Shown one piece after another: positions 42,773 to 60,930 of a DNA stretch of 64,000 nucleotides. The first letter of the stretch is position 1; every line of letters begins with the position of its first letter. Both the position numbers and the translations under genes were made by a program. Below the pieces are notes generated by a model. The model did no database searches. It was not told the origin of the DNA and saw nothing but the letters and a program-made list of their open reading frames with translations. The DNA comes from Bacteroidota bacterium (lineage in GTDB: Bacteria > Bacteroidota > Bacteroidia > UKL13-3): the NCBI GenBank assembly GCA_947507965.1, contig CANNQU010000001.1, positions 1 to 64,000 of the forward strand, in the 5' to 3' direction.

Positions 42773-45016
42773 ATGAAACGAATTTCAATTATCTTCTGTA
42801 CTCTCTTTTTACTTTTTGGCTTTACTGCCCATGCCGTAACCAAACGTGCACTATTTATGGCCATCGACACCTATAAACCCGATGGTGTAGAAAATACCGG
42901 TTCGCGCACCTGGACCAATTTAGAGGGCTGTGTTAATGATGCCGAACAGGTAAAAGCATTGGTAGCTGCAAAATATGGGTTTACCGATAACAAATACATC
43001 ACTTTTATAAAAAATCAGGAATGCACTCGTGCACGAATTCTTGCTGAACTAAATAAACTAATCGACCAATCTCAAAGCGGAGATATCGTCTTTATTTATT
43101 ACGCCGGGCATGGATCACAAGTTTATAATAGCTTAAGTGATGAAGCGGATAAAATGGATGAAACCATGGTACCCGCCGATATTTGGAAAGGGGCGAAAGA
43201 TATTCGGGATAAAGAATTAGCGGCTTTATTTAACAAACTGGTTGAAAAAGGTGTAACCCTGACCGTTGTTTACGATAGCTGCCATAGTGGCTCGGTAGGC
43301 AGAGGCGCAATGACAAATAAACCGGCCAAAGAACGTAAAATTGAAAATGATATGGAAGACGCCAAAGATGCCACACGCATTGACGTTGCACCAGAAGATA
43401 AAGGTGCCTTAATATTTAGCGCAGCTCAGGACGTAGAATGTGCAAGTGAACAAAGAGATGAATTTGATATCCCCCACGGTGCTTTTACCATCGCGTTTTG
43501 CAAGGCCTTACAAACCTTGCCTGCTACCGCTAGCGCAACTGAAATATTTACCAGTGTGCGCGCTATCATGAAATACAATGGGAAAACACAAGAACCTGTA
43601 TTGGCAGGCAACGATGCCCGTAAAGCAAATACATTATTTGGTATTGACCGTGGTTTGTTACCTAAAATGACCTTGATTGCCGTTACAACTCCTGAAAGTT
43701 CTTCGGTTGTAACACTGCAAGGAGGTACCGCAATTGGTTTATCGGTAAACTGTGTATTAACCAATACCGACAAAACAGTTGAATTGACCGTAACAGAAGT
43801 TAATAGTATGACTAAAAGTACGGCTAAAGTAACAAAAGGCGACGTTAAAAACATTAAACCAGGCGACTTATATAATGTTACGCAATGGGTGGTTGCCGAA
43901 AATGCCCTAACCGTTTATATTCCGAATTGCAATTTATCTTATGCTCAGGTTAAAACTGCCGGAGAGGAATTCTTTAAATTAAAAACGGATTCTAAAATTG
44001 AATGGGTTATCGATCCATCCAAGGTAAGTGCTACGCATACTATTTTCTATAACGATGGCGTTTGGTATGTGGGTACGCCTGATAATAAAATACATGCCAT
44101 TGGGGCCAACCCTAAAATGAGTGATGCGAAAAAATTCATCTCTGGCGACGGCATAAAATTATATGTAAGCCTTCCACCTTATGCCGGTTTAAGAGCTGAA
44201 ATTGAAAAACAATATAAAGACAATACTTCTGTAAAGATTGTTTCTACACCAGCCAATGCAAATTATTGCTTTACCGGTAGGGTATATGAAAATGAAGTGC
44301 AATACGCCTTTATCATGCCGGGCATCAACGCAAGCGATAGCGCCTATTTAAGCACCATGCCCATTCGCACCGATTTCATTCAGATGAATGGGAATAACGA
44401 TGCACGTTCCATCGATACTTTAGCCGATTATACCTTTAGGTTGGCAAAGATAAAAATTTGGTTAGCCTTAAACGGCCCAGCTGACGGAGTTAGTAATTTT
44501 CCTTTTTACCTGGCACTGAAAAATTCGAAAACAAATGAAATTGTTACTGCCGGAAATGTTGTAGATGGAGAAACCTATGGATTGGTATTGGTTGCCGATA
44601 AAGCTAATATTTACAATTGGGATGGAACTAAACGTTATGTTTATGTGTTCTCGGTAAATGCCGATGGAAGCACAAAATTATTTTATGGCGGCAAAGGAGT
44701 TGAAAATAAAATGCCCCGATTAAACGAAAATAATGAAGTGCCTGATTATATTCCATTGGGCCGGCAGCCATTGTTTAAAGTAACCGCTCCTTATGGTGTT
44801 GACACCTATATTATATTAACTACGGATGAACCCATTACAAGTCCCGAATTATTGGAAGGCCAAGGGGTAAGGAGCAGCGATATGACGGCAGCAAGAGGCG
44901 AAAAAACATGGACAGATATGTTTCAGAATGCCGGTTCGGGTGCTCGTGGTGCAGGTGATATCGCGCCAACCAACTGGAGTGTCGTTAGGGTGAGTGTACG
45001 AAGCGTTTCTAAATAA
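42773..45016 (+). CDS. secreted caspase-like (metacaspase, C14) protein
   Basis: The 747-residue protein has a signal peptide (about residues 1-21) and a caspase-fold peptidase domain at about 24-295. The catalytic His113 lies in IYYAGHGSQVYN and the catalytic Cys170 in VVYDSCHSGSVGRG; the N-terminal strand is KRALFMAIDTY. Metacaspases cleave after Arg/Lys. The C-terminal half is a beta-rich region with no named catalytic domain, ending in a DUF4384-like segment (FKVTAPYGVDTYIILTTDEPI). It lacks a recognisable T9SS tail. It follows the small secreted protein after 78 bp. Extracytoplasmic protease is the best reading. Confidence 0.9.
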   Translation: MKRISIIFCTLFLLFGFTAHAVTKRALFMAIDTYKPDGVENTGSRTWTNLEGCVNDAEQVKALVAAKYGFTDNKYITFIKNQECTRARILAELNKLIDQSQSGDIVFIYYAGHGSQVYNSLSDEADKMDETMVPADIWKGAKDIRDKELAALFNKLVEKGVTLTVVYDSCHSGSVGRGAMTNKPAKERKIENDMEDAKDATRIDVAPEDKGALIFSAAQDVECASEQRDEFDIPHGAFTIAFCKALQTLPATASATEIFTSVRAIMKYNGKTQEPVLAGNDARKANTLFGIDRGLLPKMTLIAVTTPESSSVVTLQGGTAIGLSVNCVLTNTDKTVELTVTEVNSMTKSTAKVTKGDVKNIKPGDLYNVTQWVVAENALTVYIPNCNLSYAQVKTAGEEFFKLKTDSKIEWVIDPSKVSATHTIFYNDGVWYVGTPDNKIHAIGANPKMSDAKKFISGDGIKLYVSLPPYAGLRAEIEKQYKDNTSVKIVSTPANANYCFTGRVYENEVQYAFIMPGINASDSAYLSTMPIRTDFIQMNGNNDARSIDTLADYTFRLAKIKIWLALNGPADGVSNFPFYLALKNSKTNEIVTAGNVVDGETYGLVLVADKANIYNWDGTKRYVYVFSVNADGSTKLFYGGKGVENKMPRLNENNEVPDYIPLGRQPLFKVTAPYGVDTYIILTTDEPITSPELLEGQGVRSSDMTAARGEKTWTDMFQNAGSGARGAGDIAPTNWSVVRVSVRSVSK

Positions 45017-47943: not shown

Positions 47944-48876
47944 TCAAATACTAACTTTCAAATACGCATTGATAGAGGCCAAATCAATCACTGGCCAACC
48001 ATCATCGATACTTAAAATCGGAGTAAATTTCGCGCCCCATTCAATCTCTGTTACAATATAGCTATAGGTTGAATGAATGGTTTGAAAATATCGATCGTCG
48101 TATGCTTTAAATACAAAGAGTAACTCCACTTCAGAAGCCTTAAACTGTTTTTCCGTCATTTCATAGAAGGGGCTTTTTTCATCAAAAGCGTGCACCACCG
48201 TCCAACTTGTAGGGAAAAATAAAAGTGTGTTGCGCTCTAAGTTCAAGGTATAAAACGACCGGATTCGCTCTCCCTTAACTTCTTCAAACAAAGAAACAGA
48301 TAATGACACTTCTACATCTAATAATTGACTCTTTTGTAAATTGGCGATACGAAACATGATAGCCTTGCTTCCTTTGTAAGGAGCAACTACCGCATTCTCA
48401 CTAAATAACAAGCGTGTCTCCGGCATAGAAAAACGGCCATACAATAAACCGGTGATCAAAGCAAAGCTCATCAACCCCACTAAAGCTTCCAGAGATGAAA
48501 TAATATTTGCCGACATCCCTATCGGACTGATGCGGCCATAACCTACCGTTGTAAACGTTTGCGTACTGAAGAAAAAAGAATCCAGAAACTGACGACTAAA
48601 ACTACGCATATCCACACCTTGAAGATTCTCTGCACCTAACCACATATAACCAAATGCAAATATTAAATTCACAAACGTAAACCAGGTTACGATGAGCAAA
48701 ACAAACTTCGCCCAAGAGATGCTTATGAGAAAATGATAGAAATTAAACGATGATTTAAAGGGGAGCCCTTTACGTTTAACGTTGAAAGAGCCATCTTTGT
48801 TAAGCATTCTTACCCGTTGGTTTTGCACATTGCCAAAGCCAAAATCTTTTGCTATTCTGTTGTTATTGAGCGCCAT
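47944..48876 (-). CDS. inward-rectifier-type potassium channel (KirBac-like)
   Basis: The 310-residue protein has two membrane helices with the pore between: the first at about 57-80 (FVLLIVTWFTFVNLIFAFGYMW), the selectivity filter TTVGYGRISPIG at about 118, and the inner helix (SLEALVGLMSFALITGLLYGRF). The C-terminal ~170 residues form the immunoglobulin-like cytoplasmic Kir domain (MFRIANLQKSQLLDVEVSLS). It is a cytoplasmic-membrane K+ channel gated through that domain, by lipids or other ligands. It follows tatD-like 48891 by 14 bp, so they are likely co-transcribed. Confidence 0.95.
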   Translation of the reverse strand: MALNNNRIAKDFGFGNVQNQRVRMLNKDGSFNVKRKGLPFKSSFNFYHFLISISWAKFVLLIVTWFTFVNLIFAFGYMWLGAENLQGVDMRSFSRQFLDSFFFSTQTFTTVGYGRISPIGMSANIISSLEALVGLMSFALITGLLYGRFSMPETRLLFSENAVVAPYKGSKAIMFRIANLQKSQLLDVEVSLSVSLFEEVKGERIRSFYTLNLERNTLLFFPTSWTVVHAFDEKSPFYEMTEKQFKASEVELLFVFKAYDDRYFQTIHSTYSYIVTEIEWGAKFTPILSIDDGWPVIDLASINAYLKVSI

Positions 48877-50720: not shown

Positions 50721-50758
50721 GTTAATTGCAAATTACGTTAAAGTTACGTTAATTGCAA
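50721..50758 (+). promoter_or_regulatory. direct-repeat array upstream of the DUF4956 operon
   Basis: GTTAATTGCAA occurs at 50721-50731 and 50748-50758 (27-bp period). TTACGTTAA occurs at 50733-50741 and 50744-50752 (11-bp period, about one helical turn). The array ends 9 bp before the ATG at 50768, so it overlaps the expected promoter and could bind a regulator. No clear TAnnTTTG box is present. Confidence 0.55.
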
Positions 50759-50767
50759 TTCATAATT

Positions 50768-51463
50768 ATGGAAGATTTTTTATCCTTGTACTCTAAAATA
50801 GAGAACCCTACGTTGGAAATGGTGTTCTTTACTTTTCTCCTTTCCTTTTTGCTTGGTGTTGTAATTGCGGTAGTCTATACCAAGACCACGCCAAATACCA
50901 TAAAGACGCCGAATTTTGTTCAAGCCTTAATTTTAAGCTCCATCATTGCAGCCACCGTAATTCAAGCTACAAACAATAGCATCGCTTCTGGGTTAGGAAT
51001 CCTGGGTGCGCTCACCATCCTTAATTTCCGTACTAATTTTCGCGACCCCCGCGATATTATTTTCATGTTTGCCGCCATAAGCACCGGCATCGCCTGCGGT
51101 TCCTATGTGTTTCTTATTGCTATCATTGGAATTTCGGGTTTTGGAATAGTGGCTATTATTTTAAGCTTTACACCATTTTACTTAGGCAATCATTTAATAT
51201 GGGAACTACGGTTACGATTTGATAAACAACCAGAAAAAGAAAAATTTGTTGAAGATACATTAGCAGAATTTTGTAGAAAGTTTATCAACGAAAGCATTCG
51301 TAACGATGTAACGAAAGATAATATGCCTTTTTTAGAATACGAATACGTAATCATCCTTAAAAACGAAGGAGATACCAAAAAACTAATCGCTGCCCTAGAG
51401 CTTGGTGGGGTCATTATTCGAAAATACAGCAAGCAAAATACAGAGTTTACCTCCAACGACTAA
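50768..51463 (+). CDS. DUF4956 membrane protein
   Basis: The 231-residue protein has three or four membrane helices (about 15-37, 51-68, 75-92, 105-145) containing the DUF4956 signature GLGILGALTILNFRTNFRDPRDIIFMF, then a soluble C-terminal domain of about 85 residues. DUF4956 proteins often neighbour polyphosphate-type (VTC) and CotH genes, but their activity is not established. The ATG at 50768 (MEDFLSLYSKI) is used; a longer TTG start at 50753 is inside the repeat array. It overlaps the adaptor gene by one base and heads a three-gene export-like operon. Confidence 0.9.
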   Translation: MEDFLSLYSKIENPTLEMVFFTFLLSFLLGVVIAVVYTKTTPNTIKTPNFVQALILSSIIAATVIQATNNSIASGLGILGALTILNFRTNFRDPRDIIFMFAAISTGIACGSYVFLIAIIGISGFGIVAIILSFTPFYLGNHLIWELRLRFDKQPEKEKFVEDTLAEFCRKFINESIRNDVTKDNMPFLEYEYVIILKNEGDTKKLIAALELGGVIIRKYSKQNTEFTSND

Positions 51464-52455
51464 TGAAAAGAATTAATTTACTTTATATATTCTGGATATT
51501 GGCCTTTATTTTCTGCCTTTGGATTATGAATAACCTCAGAACCCAAGGCAATAGGACCATCTTTGGAATCGCTTTTACTGAAAGCCATTCGATTAACGTC
51601 GAATACGCTACTACCGTTACTCAGAGAATGGTTCAGCCGGGAGATCGAGTAAAAAAAGGAGACACGTTACTGGTGTTACGTCGCGATGAAATCAACAAAA
51701 ATATTACCGATAGGTTGGCTTCCATGAACTTGTTGGAGGTAGAAAGAATATCCAAAAATCAAATCCTGGATAAAGAAATAGAATTATTTAAAGCAAGTCA
51801 AACCACACGTAGCATTGAGGTTAACTCACAAATAAAAATTATTGAAAAAGAAATTGAGATTCAAAAAAATCTTTTAAAATCTATTGGAGAGAATAGCGTG
51901 GATCAGTCGAGTAATGTCAAACAGTTAGAACTTGCGGCGTTGGTTGAATCGTTGAAACAGTTGAACCTTCATACCATCGAACAGTTAAGCTCCTATGAAA
52001 CCCAACGGCAGAGCAATGATAAAAATCAGGAAGCAAAAAAAACACAGTTTAAAAATGAAATGGATTATTACCAAGAGGAGCAATATAAAATGATTGTCTG
52101 CTCACCTTGTGATGGCATCGTAGAAAATGTTTTTGTTCTTCCCAATGATATCGCCCCTCAATACAAAGAACTTCTTAGAATAAACAGTAATAATCCAAAT
52201 CGAGTGACCGGCTTTATCCATGAAAGCATAGTAGCGCCGTTTAAACTAGGAGATACGGTGATTCTTGTTTCTGCTGCACGTTTGGATGTTACTTCAAAGG
52301 GAGTGATTTTAGGCAATGGAAACAATCTAGTAGAACTCCCGTTACGACTGCGCAAGTTTGTAGAAATTCGTGCTTGGGGGCGTGAAGTTTATATAAAATT
52401 GGATGCTGCCAATAATTTCTATATTGGTGAGAAAATATTGATTCGATTTAATTAA
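51463..52455 (+). CDS. membrane fusion (HlyD-like periplasmic adaptor) protein
   Basis: The 330-residue protein has one N-terminal membrane anchor (LLYIFWILAFIFCLWIM), a split lipoyl domain (VQPGDRVKKGDTLLVLRRD, later VCSPCDGIVENVFVLPNDIA) and a long coiled-coil hairpin between them (about 72-200, rich in K/E/I). The C-terminal part has beta-barrel-like features (GDTVILVSAARLDVTSKGVI). Adaptors link an inner-membrane pump to a TolC channel. It overlaps the DUF4956 gene by one base and precedes the TolC-like gene by 11 bp. No ATPase or RND pump is encoded nearby. Confidence 0.88.
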   Translation: MKRINLLYIFWILAFIFCLWIMNNLRTQGNRTIFGIAFTESHSINVEYATTVTQRMVQPGDRVKKGDTLLVLRRDEINKNITDRLASMNLLEVERISKNQILDKEIELFKASQTTRSIEVNSQIKIIEKEIEIQKNLLKSIGENSVDQSSNVKQLELAALVESLKQLNLHTIEQLSSYETQRQSNDKNQEAKKTQFKNEMDYYQEEQYKMIVCSPCDGIVENVFVLPNDIAPQYKELLRINSNNPNRVTGFIHESIVAPFKLGDTVILVSAARLDVTSKGVILGNGNNLVELPLRLRKFVEIRAWGREVYIKLDAANNFYIGEKILIRFN

Positions 52456-52466
52456 TTGCTTTACTC

Positions 52467-53756
52467 ATGATGCCTAAGTTTTTAATTTCATCAACGTTTC
52501 TATTCATATTCTACATCTCTAGTGCTGTGGCACAAACCGTGAGTATAGAAAGCATTTTAGCTACCTACTTACAGGATGAAAAAGTGATTTCAGCAGGTGC
52601 AATGGCAAATTTTTCCGATGCCCTAAATTACAAACTTCCTGCTGTGAAAAAATTAGAATTCAGGCTAGGTATTAATGGAAACAACAGCCCTGATACTTTA
52701 GATGGTAGCTTGCGTAATGAGGACTATTACTCGGTAAACCTCACCACGAATAAGTGGAAGGAGATGAAACTCCAAAAGAAACTAAAGCCCATCCAAACCA
52801 ATCTCTATCACAAAGAGCAAGAGATGCTCATCACACAAGCCTTACTGGATCGTTATTTGGTGATTGTTAACCTCTATTACAGCCTTGAGTCATTAAAAAA
52901 CAGAAAGGAATTACAAGACCTACTCCTAAAAAAGAATGACCTCCTAAAACAATTACTTAATGATGGAGTCACAATAAAAATAACCGATGCACTTGAAATC
53001 GATAAAGATTTAGTGCAGCTGTTTGTTATACTTCAGGAAGAGGAGCGTGATATCGATACCTATTACGCCCGACTCCGTCAGTATTTTAGTTCTTCCGATA
53101 CTTTTCAGGTTAATTTTTCGGATTTAATAACCATGAAAAAAGTTATTGCCAACACCTCAACATTAAAATACGACAGCATAACGTCACATCCTTCATTAGT
53201 ATATAGAGAAGCACAATATCAGTTTGCTCAGGCCAATTACAATCTAGAACATATTCAAAATACAAACATCTTAAATTCCTTTCAACTAGGTTATAACCGC
53301 CCCGTTTATAACAATGAAATACTAAAGAAATTCAAGCCGGAGAACACGTTAACTTTTCGTGTGGGAATATCTGTGCCTTTAACTGGAAACAATAACTTAA
53401 ACAGAAACAATGCCAATCTTGAGCAATACAATGCAATGCTTAACTGGCAGAATGCGCAGGCAATTCAAACCAAATACATCATTTTACAAGACGCTAAACT
53501 TAATCTCACGATAAAACAATACCAGGCATTCGAAGAGATTTATAAGAACAGTATCGTTGCTAAATTACTCGAGAACGAAAAAATTATGGCACAAAGTACT
53601 GCACTTGAGATCCTTGACTTGAAAATTGCCAAAAAGAAATTGGAACTAAATTTAAATAGCAGTGCAAGTAATGTGATGCGAAATTACCTTCTGCTTATAG
53701 AGAGTAAGGGAATACTTAACTTTGATTTAAGGCATCAATATTTGCTGGAGAAGTAA
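52467..53756 (+). CDS. TolC-like outer membrane efflux protein
   Basis: The 429-residue protein has a signal peptide (LISSTFLFIFYISSAVAQT) and two related halves rich in long helices (about 85-190 and 310-425: NRKELQDLLLKKNDLLKQLL, IAKKKLELNLNSSASNVMRNYL), the alpha-barrel pattern of TolC family proteins, separated by beta-strand segments (FRLGINGNN, LTFRVGISVPLTG). It forms a channel through the outer membrane. It is shorter than classical TolC. Third gene of the DUF4956-adaptor operon and convergent with the amylase gene. Confidence 0.85.
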   Translation: MMPKFLISSTFLFIFYISSAVAQTVSIESILATYLQDEKVISAGAMANFSDALNYKLPAVKKLEFRLGINGNNSPDTLDGSLRNEDYYSVNLTTNKWKEMKLQKKLKPIQTNLYHKEQEMLITQALLDRYLVIVNLYYSLESLKNRKELQDLLLKKNDLLKQLLNDGVTIKITDALEIDKDLVQLFVILQEEERDIDTYYARLRQYFSSSDTFQVNFSDLITMKKVIANTSTLKYDSITSHPSLVYREAQYQFAQANYNLEHIQNTNILNSFQLGYNRPVYNNEILKKFKPENTLTFRVGISVPLTGNNNLNRNNANLEQYNAMLNWQNAQAIQTKYIILQDAKLNLTIKQYQAFEEIYKNSIVAKLLENEKIMAQSTALEILDLKIAKKKLELNLNSSASNVMRNYLLLIESKGILNFDLRHQYLLEK

Positions 53757-57954: not shown

Positions 57955-58572
57955 TTGAAAAAATTTATTTTTTCGGCTCTGCTCCTGTCTTTCTTTATGT
58001 CAGCTAAATCGCAAAATTGGGATATTAATCTATTGCGTAAGATCAACAAAAACCAGTCAACGGCAGCCACCACCTTTTTCAAAATTACAAGTAATAGTGC
58101 GTATGTCATTCCATTGGCATATCCTATGTTAAGCTTTGCCGTAGGTAAAATCAAAAAAGATAATCCATTGGTAAGAGAAAGTTTTTATTCGGCTGTTTCA
58201 TTAGGTACGGTAAGCCTTTTAAGTTATTCGATCAAAATCATAACGAAGCGGCCACGCCCATACATCGCATATCCCAGTCAACTTGTTTTTGATAAACCGT
58301 CGAAAACCTATTCCTTTCCATCGGGTCATACCACGGTAGCCTTTTGCAGTGCCACTAGTATGGCACTCTACTACCATAAGTGGTATGTTACCTTACCGGC
58401 CTACGCCTGGGCCTGCACCGTAGCCTACTCACGAATGTACCTTGGAAAACATTATCCAAGTGATGTAATCGGTGGCATTGTGTTGGGAGTAGGAATCCCC
58501 CTCTTGTTTCATTTTTGGAAGCCGGCAAACCAATGGATTGATACAACAGGGAAAGGACTTCTTCACTATTAA
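57955..58572 (+). CDS. PAP2 family phosphatase
   Basis: The 205-residue protein has all three phosphatase motifs of the PAP2 superfamily: KIITKRPRPYIAYPSQ (K-x(6)-RP), YSFPSGHTTVAF (PSGH) and SRMYLGKHYPSDVIGG (SR-x(5)-H-x(3)-D). It begins with a signal peptide (KKFIFSALLLSFFMSAKSQ) that is only encoded from the TTG at 57955; no in-frame ATG precedes it (stop at 57925). It has membrane helices around the active site. It probably dephosphorylates lipid phosphates such as undecaprenyl pyrophosphate. Divergent from the acyltransferase. Confidence 0.92.
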   Translation: MKKFIFSALLLSFFMSAKSQNWDINLLRKINKNQSTAATTFFKITSNSAYVIPLAYPMLSFAVGKIKKDNPLVRESFYSAVSLGTVSLLSYSIKIITKRPRPYIAYPSQLVFDKPSKTYSFPSGHTTVAFCSATSMALYYHKWYVTLPAYAWACTVAYSRMYLGKHYPSDVIGGIVLGVGIPLLFHFWKPANQWIDTTGKGLLHY

Positions 58573-58620: not shown

Positions 58621-60930
58621 ATGGGTTTCCGCTTACTCTTTAGCTTCCTTTTTGTACCTCTTTTTGCTTGCACACAAAACGCCAATCCTCCTCGTGGACG
58701 AGTTTATAACGATTCAACCATCATTTCATTATTTATTACCATCGACGCCGACTCCCTTGCCGCGCTCTACAAAGTAGGTAATGAGTGCAACAACCACGAA
58801 TATCCGGTGTCGATGGTATGGAGTGATGGACTTTTGCCAAATGACACCTTACTCAATGTTGGCTTCCGCTTAAAAGGAAACACATCACGTTTGGCGAAAA
58901 AGAAATCGTTTAAGCTTTCATTCAACACCTTTAAGCCGGGCCGAAATTTTTATGATGTAGAAAAAATTAATTTAAATGGAGAGCATAACGATCCAAGTAT
59001 ACTACGCGAAAAATTGTTTTGGGACGCCATGTACAAAGCGAATTCGCCTGCCCTGCGATGTAATTATGTCAAACTTTTTGTTAATGGCAACTATTTTGGA
59101 CTTTATATAAACATAGAAGATTTAGACGAAATTTTCACCCAGTCGCGCTTTGGCAATAACGATGGCAATCTTTACAAATGCTACTATGGTGCCGATTTGA
59201 ATTATAAAGGAGTCAATGGCAATCTCTATAAATTCTCCGGGTCATTTTGTGGGAAAACGCAACGAGTCTATGAATTGCAGAACAATATACCATCCGACAA
59301 TTATCAGCAACTGGCCGACTTTATTAGTGCGCTTAATAACTTACCGGCAGATACTTTTTTCGCTTCAAAAATAAAGCAGTACTTTAATGTGGAAGGATAT
59401 TTGAAAATATTGGCATTGGAGGTGGCCTCAGGCCATTGGGACAATTACGTATGGAATAGCAACAACTATTTCTTATATGAAAACGCTTATACCAAACAAT
59501 TCGAATATTTAAGCTATGATGCCGATAACACCTTTGGTATTGGCTGGAGCGCCGACGACTGGGGAACAAAAGACGTGCATCAATTTAATAGCGGGAAAAA
59601 CAGACCACTATATTCGAAAATTTTATCGGTACCTGAGTTTAAAAATAAATTCGATTATTACCTTCAGGAGATAACATCTACTATATATGATACTGCCTTT
59701 ATCTTTCCACGTATTGATTTCATTCACAACCAAATATGGACGGCTGCCGTGGCCGACACCTTTCGTACACTAGATTATGGCTTTACCGTAGGTCAATTTC
59801 ATAATTCATTTGTGCAAACGATTGGAGTTACCCATGTAAAATATGGCTTAAAACCCTTCTTCACCGCACGTAATAAAAGCATAGAACAGCAAATTTTGAA
59901 CAACAATATTATTCCTGTACTGATACGTGAGAAACACATTCCTGAATTTGCCTCAACCAGCAATATCTTGAAATTTGCCATTACATCCTATGATGACGAA
60001 ACGCCATTAACCGTGAAAATTCATTTTAGTTACGACTTAAATTCAGGGTTTATTGCTGCTACCCTTTTTGATGATGGCCTACATGATGATGGTGCTGCTA
60101 GTGATGGAATATGGGGAATTCAATTGCCGGCACATCCTATGGTGGACACGTTACTGTTTTATTATTCTGCCTCCTCTGCCTCGAACCAAGTAACTCGATA
60201 CCCATCGATTGGCAATTTAATATTGCCAATTGGGGTGAAAAGCAACTTAAAATTAAGAATCAACGAATTGATGGCAAAGAACACTTCCATAATAATGGAT
60301 GAGCTTAATGAATATGACGATTGGCTTGAAATATACAACGAGGGAAATTTTGGCATCACCTTGAACTCGGTTTACTTAAGTAATAGCATGACTATGCCTA
60401 CCAAGTTTCAACTTCCTAATGAAATTATTCTACCCAAGTCTTTTAAGCTCTTTTGGTGCGACAACCAAACGATACAAGGTGCTTATCATACGAATTTCAA
60501 ATTAAGTGCGAATAATGAATGGATTGGACTTTTTGAAAACAATGGATTATTAATCGATAGCGTTCGTTATACTTCGTTAGGTAATGACGTATCGCTTGGA
60601 AGAACAAGCGATGGCATCGGCCCTTTTGCACTTTTAAACAACAGAACACCTGGATATAGCAACAATGGCTTTAGTTATGGAATAATTTCACCGGAGGAGG
60701 CCAAAACATACACGGTGTATCCCAATCCTGCAAAAAAAGCGATAAGAATTCAGGCATCGTTCAATACCACGAAGGAGAATTTTAGAATCTATAATTTATT
60801 GGGTACGCAAATTATGGAAGGTGAAATAACCGAGAAAGAAACCATTGTCCCTTTATTCTTAATCCCGGAAGGTGTGTATATTCTTCAATGTGGTGCTACG
60901 TTCTTTACAAAAATAGGTATCGTGAAATAA
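58621..60930 (+). CDS. CotH-like secreted kinase with LTD domain and T9SS type A tail
   Basis: The 769-residue protein has a signal sequence ending near FACTQN (possible lipobox). A CotH domain follows at about 30-400: VGFRLKGNTSRLAKKKSFKL, HNDPSILREKLFWDAMYK, VNGNYFGLYINIEDLDE and FEYLSYDADNTFGIGW, which match the ATP-grip regions of atypical CotH kinases. Further on come a lamin-tail domain (about 535-680, RINELMAKNTS, DWLEIYNEG) and a T9SS type A domain (TVYPNPAKKAIRIQA, IPEGVYILQCG). It is a candidate surface-located kinase or ligand-binding protein. Confidence 0.93.
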   Translation: MGFRLLFSFLFVPLFACTQNANPPRGRVYNDSTIISLFITIDADSLAALYKVGNECNNHEYPVSMVWSDGLLPNDTLLNVGFRLKGNTSRLAKKKSFKLSFNTFKPGRNFYDVEKINLNGEHNDPSILREKLFWDAMYKANSPALRCNYVKLFVNGNYFGLYINIEDLDEIFTQSRFGNNDGNLYKCYYGADLNYKGVNGNLYKFSGSFCGKTQRVYELQNNIPSDNYQQLADFISALNNLPADTFFASKIKQYFNVEGYLKILALEVASGHWDNYVWNSNNYFLYENAYTKQFEYLSYDADNTFGIGWSADDWGTKDVHQFNSGKNRPLYSKILSVPEFKNKFDYYLQEITSTIYDTAFIFPRIDFIHNQIWTAAVADTFRTLDYGFTVGQFHNSFVQTIGVTHVKYGLKPFFTARNKSIEQQILNNNIIPVLIREKHIPEFASTSNILKFAITSYDDETPLTVKIHFSYDLNSGFIAATLFDDGLHDDGAASDGIWGIQLPAHPMVDTLLFYYSASSASNQVTRYPSIGNLILPIGVKSNLKLRINELMAKNTSIIMDELNEYDDWLEIYNEGNFGITLNSVYLSNSMTMPTKFQLPNEIILPKSFKLFWCDNQTIQGAYHTNFKLSANNEWIGLFENNGLLIDSVRYTSLGNDVSLGRTSDGIGPFALLNNRTPGYSNNGFSYGIISPEEAKTYTVYPNPAKKAIRIQASFNTTKENFRIYNLLGTQIMEGEITEKETIVPLFLIPEGVYILQCGATFFTKIGIVK

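Follow-up and report, generated by a model that had tools for sequence, protein, structure and literature searches.

A DUF4956–HlyD–TolC operon of Bacteroidota, a possible trans-envelope conduit associated with CotH kinases

Introduction

A periplasmic adaptor of the HlyD type and a TolC-like outer-membrane channel make up a known kind of export conduit, and the locus described here raises the question of what such a conduit serves when the inner-membrane protein it is paired with is not a known pump. The locus lies in the first 64,000 nucleotides of contig CANNQU010000001.1 (assembly GCA_947507965.1, a freshwater Bacteroidota bacterium of the UKL13-3 lineage), a stretch referred to below, at its full length, as the window. 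At 50768–53756 of the window, on the forward strand, are genes for a membrane protein of the DUF4956 family, a periplasmic adaptor of the HlyD type and a channel with the TolC fold, in that order (Table 1), and among the family matches of the window proteins no ABC, RND or MFS transporter gene was found beside them. The comparative data support DUF4956 as the protein of the inner membrane with which this adaptor and channel are consistently paired. Our tentative reading is that the three proteins form a trans-envelope conduit that may deliver a phosphate-rich donor to extracellular CotH kinases, the donor probably being polyphosphate in those lineages where a VTC-type polymerase is present.

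Results

The three genes are tightly packed, the adaptor ATG overlapping the DUF4956 stop by 1 bp and a gap of 11 bp separating adaptor and channel, exactly as the initial annotation had it. That annotation placed the operon at 50721–53756; its end is retained but its start is slightly too far upstream, the ATG of the DUF4956 gene being at 50768. A mechanical list of open reading frames begins this gene at a TTG (50753), and the ATG is used here. The channel gene may start at 52467 or, alternatively, at the ATG at 52470. A promoter and terminator scan of the region gave nothing decisive, and promoters were no more numerous than in shuffled sequences. Compared with the nearest relative, DUF4956 has a ratio of non-synonymous to synonymous substitution rates (dN/dS) of 0.03 and the adaptor one of 0.07; the conduit is retained under purifying selection.

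A scan of genome contigs returned 338 stretches encoding relatives, the best 80 of which were read. DUF4956 is accompanied by the adaptor in 73 of these 80 and by the channel in 69, while a VTC polymerase is present in 21; some of the loci without a full set end at contig edges. Among these 80, the closest relatives come from four metagenome-assembled genomes (82–91% identity) and then from Saprospiraceae, and the farther ones from Desulfobacterota, Fibrobacterota/Chitinivibrionales, Calditrichaeota, Delongbacteria, Arcobacteraceae, Gammaproteobacteria and Planctomycetota. The constancy of adaptor and channel, together with the low dN/dS, argues that the conduit is more than a chance association. 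The reverse search, in which 148 Bacteroidota genomes were searched with the adaptor alignment, gave 20 adaptors of the subfamily at ~207 bits or more (next match, 92 bits). All 20, including 11 that were absent from the query alignment, lie on the same contig as a DUF4956 gene and within ~1 kb of it, so that homologous adaptor loci lacking DUF4956, which the initial annotation had named as the case against its reading, did not occur. No ABC, RND or MFS pump family recurred among the 169 neighbour genes of the relatives (ABC in 2 of the 103 at loci without VTC). The earlier statement that the unit has no recognisable partner holds for this branch only; elsewhere a VTC polymerase and CotH go with it.

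The adaptor matches Pfam weakly (HlyD_D23, 0.001) and NCBIfam below cut-off (RND_mfp, 8.7e-11; EmrA, 7e-7), and its family profile matches the PDB sequences of EmrA (7.4e-12), MacA and HlyD structures, which bears out the HlyD-like assignment. The subfamily has a conserved C-terminal signature, RLRK..P....WGREV.I.IP..N.FL..EKV. Some long adaptors of ~640–730 amino acids (L132:1524-3719, L153:6749-8755 and L170:6681-8612) carry a weakly matching C-terminal phytase-like/SdiA-regulated beta-propeller, and in L056 an SdiA-regulated gene stands beside DUF4956, its cluster occurring also in L049 and L053. The channel protein of the window has no Pfam match of its own, and its identity as TolC-like was therefore checked on an AlphaFold model (predicted local distance difference test, pLDDT, 88.5). 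All 43 Foldseek matches in the PDB at E<=0.001 were TolC/OprM/CusC-type channels, the best being TolC itself (2e-14), and channel relatives at the same place match OEP (PF02321; 7.7e-10 in L116). A PDB sequence search with the TolC-like profile returned nothing useful. Other TolC-type channels are also encoded in the window genome.

DUF4956 matches PF16316 above the curated Pfam cut-off. Its predicted model (pLDDT 81) has five long helices (14–40, 50–67, 72–89, 94–111 and 115–134), one more than first described, followed by a predicted C-terminal domain of beta-alpha-beta-beta-alpha-beta order, ferredoxin/ACT-like in type. A cytosolic position of this domain, as proposed earlier, is also predicted: the positively charged loops after helix 1 and after helix 3 (FRT...DPRD) fit an N-terminus outside and a C-terminus inside. 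The conserved motif of the family is GLG..GA..I.FRT....R...F.FA...G..(C)G. In the PDB, the model is matched best by 2lqj, the C-terminal domain of MgtC (E 1.9e-3), with many ferredoxin-like folds scoring equally; VIA-align gave only generic ferredoxin-like folds for the C-domain, and a PDB sequence search with the DUF4956 profile found nothing useful. The window protein has no match to Pfam MgtC (PF02308), which appears below threshold as the second family in 28 of 58 DUF4956 relatives (best E 1.3e-4), and in hhalign comparisons with four MgtC proteins the glycine motif could be aligned, at E 0.008 but with low probability. A streptococcal homologue was independently described in 2025 as an MgtC transmembrane domain joined to an ACT domain (PMC12345266). 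From the 2lqj match, the sub-threshold PF02308 scores and this description, DUF4956 looks MgtC-like and is probably a remote homologue, with scores that stay below the Pfam MgtC cut-off.

The polymerase that accompanies DUF4956 elsewhere is found in several arrangements. Outside Bacteroidota the order is DUF4956-HlyD-TolC-VTC or a rotation of it, frequently accompanied by CotH. Other branches of Bacteroidota show VTC-DUF4956-adaptor, adaptor-VTC-DUF4956 with a second adaptor subfamily, or VTC-DUF4956-DUF2490. One locus (L039) reads DUF4956-adaptor-OEP-VTC-CotH. In the window's own family, three further genera have a single operon of HlyD, VTC, DUF4956 and a TolC-sized gene, the last being OEP-positive in both of the two genera scanned. 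As the adaptor that goes with VTC in these genera is of another subfamily, the four parts have been assembled in two different ways. The VTC partners have invariant basic and acidic residues (R15/E17/K19, R77/R81/R83, E96/K98, K107/R109, R162, R174 and E216/K218), and so keep the paired charges expected of a TTM tunnel. The earlier idea of polymer secretion gains from the presence of this polymerase in the sister loci.

The window genome (99.9% complete) gave zero matches to PF09359 even at E<=10, which rules out a VTC hidden elsewhere in it. Of 12 further genomes whose unit is of the VTC-less type, 11 had none at E<=0.1 and the twelfth had only a 34-position fragment (E 0.04) with an internal stop. 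Some Saprospiraceae do have VTC, mostly, where the surroundings are readable, beside a different DUF4956 with another gene set. Cultured strains with the VTC-less unit include Neolewinella persica DSM 23188, Lewinella cohaerens DSM 23179 and Pleomorphovibrio marinus, and the complete unit is found in Desulfonema magnum and Desulfoluna limicola. All 30 VTC-less loci placed on the unrooted tree fall into one clade (support 99/98), and the VTC state changes a single time on it. Since all sister groups carry VTC, the simplest reading is that the window's clade of Bacteroidota lost it once, the unrooted tree also leaving room for gene transfer. In DUF4956, residues Q52, G75-L76-G77, A81, F87-R88, F99, G107, G111 and G121 are invariant with and without VTC alike, while the equivalent of Y46, R148 and R178 show full or nearly full conservation only where VTC is present, a pattern that is suggestive of a lost docking partner in a VTC-positive set that is small and related. 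PPK1, a possible source of polyphosphate, is encoded in the window genome. In four loci (L204, L205, L209 and L210) a divergent DUF4956 occurs with a short VTC and a membrane-anchored protein of 820–980 amino acids, which has a beta-helix in L204; a signal-peptide protein that is CYTH-like (TTM; PF01928 1.2e-6 for L209) is additionally encoded in L209 and L210.

CotH, counted with a domain-only profile and Pfam, is the commonest Pfam family around VTC-positive loci (16 of 66 neighbour genes). At VTC-less loci it accounts for 14 of 103, second only to the sorting tail of the type IX secretion system (T9SS), and LTD is next. A phylum-wide draw of 247 Bacteroidota genomes contained 68 with DUF4956; CotH is present in 61 of these and in 35 of the 179 others (odds ratio 36, p 8e-25, kinship ignored), or, by genus, in 42/44 against 30/78. 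All 17 genomes counted as VTC-less type have it. The Bacteroidota CotH proteins beside DUF4956 loci carry a T9SS tail in 18 of 19 loci with the adaptor and in 2 of 6 without (Fisher p 0.005 in a small, non-independent sample), and conduit and kinase would therefore reach the same side. Five of the seven DUF4956 genomes without CotH have a convergent PPDK_N gene (ATP-binding phosphotransferase) with a signal-peptide-like start beside DUF4956, as if this enzyme stood in for CotH there. In L084 (10272-12167), and also in L085–L088, that PPDK ATP-binding protein faces a short DUF4956 of 185–186 amino acids, in genomes mostly without CotH.

The window genome has five CotH genes. The one in the window (Table 1) may be a functional partner of the conduit but was rejected as the dedicated one: it is a paralog with 24% identity to the DUF4956-linked CotH of Saprospiraceae, a closer ortholog of which (43% identity) lies on another contig (locus L231). 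CotH is found at a similar distance from the operon in only one of four congeners. Directly upstream of the window CotH gene is a PAP2 phosphatase gene, a family seen three times among the neighbours of VTC-less relatives.

Other genes were noted near DUF4956 loci. A PhoU-domain gene (DUF47, PF01865 2.7e-62; L170:9964-10638) directly follows the channel in a gammaproteobacterial unit with no VTC on the contig, and purple-acid-phosphatase-like metallophosphatases are found near two loci (L082:7412-8854 and L126:4048-5268). In L044 (8512-12697), which has no VTC, DUF4956 is between a myo-inositol-1-phosphate synthase and a Porin_O_P/CotH pair. Two further window genes upstream of the operon are included in Table 1.

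Table 1. The operon and other features of the window
Feature	Coordinates	Strand	Product	Basis
DUF4956 inner-membrane protein	50768..51463	+	231 amino acids; ATG start 50768, stop 51463	PF16316 E 7.6e-12
HlyD/EmrA-type periplasmic adaptor	51463..52455	+	330 amino acids; one N-terminal transmembrane segment	NCBIfam and PDB-profile matches
TolC-fold outer-membrane channel	52467..53756	+	428-429 amino acids; signal peptide-like N-terminus	AlphaFold/Foldseek; PF02321 in relatives
Secreted CotH kinase-like protein	58621..60930	+	LTD; Por_Secre_tail (T9SS sorting tail)	PF08757 2.3e-53
PAP2 phosphatase	57955..58572	+		
Caspase-domain protein	42773..45016	+	747 amino acids; signal-peptide-like start	Peptidase_C14
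Inward-rectifier-type potassium channel	47944..48876	-		IRK_C 5e-24

Discussion

The operon would specify a dedicated conduit in which DUF4956 occupies the inner membrane, the adaptor bridges the periplasm and the channel spans the outer membrane. This conduit may represent one branch of a larger machine, to which a cytosolic polymerase of the VTC type and a secreted CotH kinase also belong. What it carries, in which direction, at the expense of what energy and how CotH would use it we infer as follows. In the complete form, the polymerase would make polyphosphate where DUF4956 opens to the cytosol and, as a TTM enzyme docked there, would push the chain outward, by analogy with eukaryotic VTC; adaptor and channel would extend the path past the outer membrane, and outside the cell polyphosphate could serve CotH kinases as a phosphate donor, or act as a matrix polymer. 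In the VTC-less clade the conduit probably still moves a phosphate-rich anion, either PPK1-derived polyphosphate or a nucleotide, for the secreted CotH. A stronger version, in which a general machine for secreting phosphoryl donors sends polyphosphate or nucleotide out, through HlyD-TolC in Gram-negatives and without them in Gram-positives, and secreted CotH phosphorylates surface and matrix proteins, seems to us doubtful.

A phosphate-donor conduit would explain why CotH follows DUF4956 even after the loss of VTC. It would also explain results from Streptococcus intermedius, where loss of the DUF4956 gene and loss of the CotH gene lead to a common aggregation defect and, as far as the available sections of the study go, none is reported for deletion of the polymerase gene (PMC12345266). 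The phytase/SdiA-like propellers on some adaptors and the phosphatase and PhoU-like genes at some loci are counted in its favour. Several points weigh against it. We know of no MgtC protein that acts as a polymer channel and of no CotH that uses polyphosphate. The window CotH gene is outside the operon, 4.9 kb downstream with four genes between; of 48 VTC-less loci with a channel, only 12 have CotH close by; and the co-occurrence of CotH with DUF4956 is partly due to shared ancestry. In vitro, the CotH of Bacillus subtilis uses ATP to phosphorylate coat proteins (PMC7821199). The in vivo source of that ATP has been called an unanswered question (PMC7821199), and a secreted, T9SS-tailed CotH faces the same difficulty.

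It is rather unlikely, in our view, that DUF4956 acts as the pump, proton-driven or gating, in a tripartite exporter of small molecules or peptides and that the VTC-less branch has switched cargo entirely. The only constant parts are indeed DUF4956, adaptor and channel, and VTC was lost while the conduit remained under selection; yet the sister branches all have a polymerase with intact catalytic-type residues, the association with CotH persists after VTC loss, and a protein of five transmembrane helices and 231 amino acids, lacking an ATPase, is small for a pump. That the adaptor and channel work for a transporter of the ABC, RND or MFS type encoded elsewhere, with DUF4956 as a mere regulator, is quite improbable. 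MgtC regulates ATP synthase and phosphate signalling, and the MgtC-like fold of DUF4956 would suit such a role, but the invariable position of the subfamily adaptors beside DUF4956 and the lack of any recurring pump family nearby would require the pump to be unlinked in every lineage. The other TolC-type channels of the window genome, available to ordinary pumps, are also compatible with this explanation.

Two further explanations concern what might be moved. The unit could secrete or regulate an exopolysaccharide or other matrix polymer, DUF4956 being a signal-binding (ACT-like) gate and the link to phosphate regulatory. CotH, the polyphosphate polymerase and DUF4956 are described as accessory genes of Gram-positive Pel clusters in one report (PMC7112168), and deletion of the DUF4956 or CotH gene alters the amount of Pel according to another (PMC12345266). 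At DUF4956-HlyD-TolC loci, however, no polysaccharide synthase recurs and each glycosyltransferase family makes up at most 2 of 103 neighbours, so that we regard a matrix-polymer system as improbable here. Homeostasis of phosphate or divalent cations, in which the unit vents excess phosphate or Mg-phosphate and CotH is uninvolved, would suit an MgtC-like protein, the PhoU-domain gene right after the channel in L170 and the purple-acid-phosphatase-like genes near two loci; as it leaves both the leading neighbour, CotH, and the T9SS tails unexplained, we consider it very unlikely.

The delivery of a phosphate-rich donor to CotH thus remains our working proposal, and the earlier reading, a tripartite system of a new kind that has DUF4956 as its inner-membrane part and might handle a polymer, is partly supported, with its core strengthened. 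The loci join three poorly understood families, the VTC-type polymerase, DUF4956 and CotH, into what may be one trans-envelope machine in several phyla. If this exports polyphosphate or another phosphate donor, the question of the ATP source of CotH becomes directly testable, and the VTC-less branch offers a natural experiment on what the conduit carries once the polymerase is gone. Literature searches found nothing that joins a polyphosphate polymerase with HlyD, or extracellular polyphosphate export with TolC, and papers naming DUF4956 describe, in their retrievable parts, no adaptor or TolC alongside it.

Several known systems share parts with the unit. In eukaryotic VTC, polyphosphate synthesis is coupled to translocation (PMC9911596), and the chain passes through the complex's own membrane channel. 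The likeness, by analogy, is a TTM/VTC polymerase with a small helical membrane protein, synthesis at the cytosolic face and polymer on the far side; the differences are that the membrane partner here is the MgtC-like DUF4956, that adaptor and TolC are added for a second membrane, that no SPX domain was seen here and that the window's branch is without any polymerase. Gram-positive Pel clusters bring together CotH, the polyphosphate polymerase and a DUF4956 described as MgtC-like transmembrane plus ACT (PMC7112168; PMC12345266), with neither adaptor nor TolC in the portions of these papers at hand. In the 2025 study the arrangement of three genes was not encountered beyond Pel loci (PMC12345266), whereas here the three families occur together at many Gram-negative loci at which no Pel synthase recurs. 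The MgtC/SapB family has a glycine motif, GxG...GA, much like that of DUF4956, and may also resemble it in its set of about five transmembrane helices and in a C-terminal domain of ferredoxin/ACT-like type; DUF4956 differs in scoring below the Pfam MgtC cut-off, in its FRT...R motif and in being tied to an export apparatus. Finally, the tripartite exporters built on EmrA, MacA or HlyD adaptors and TolC have an adaptor and an outer-membrane channel of the same families and folds as those of the window operon, in which the place of the ABC, MFS or RND pump is taken by DUF4956.

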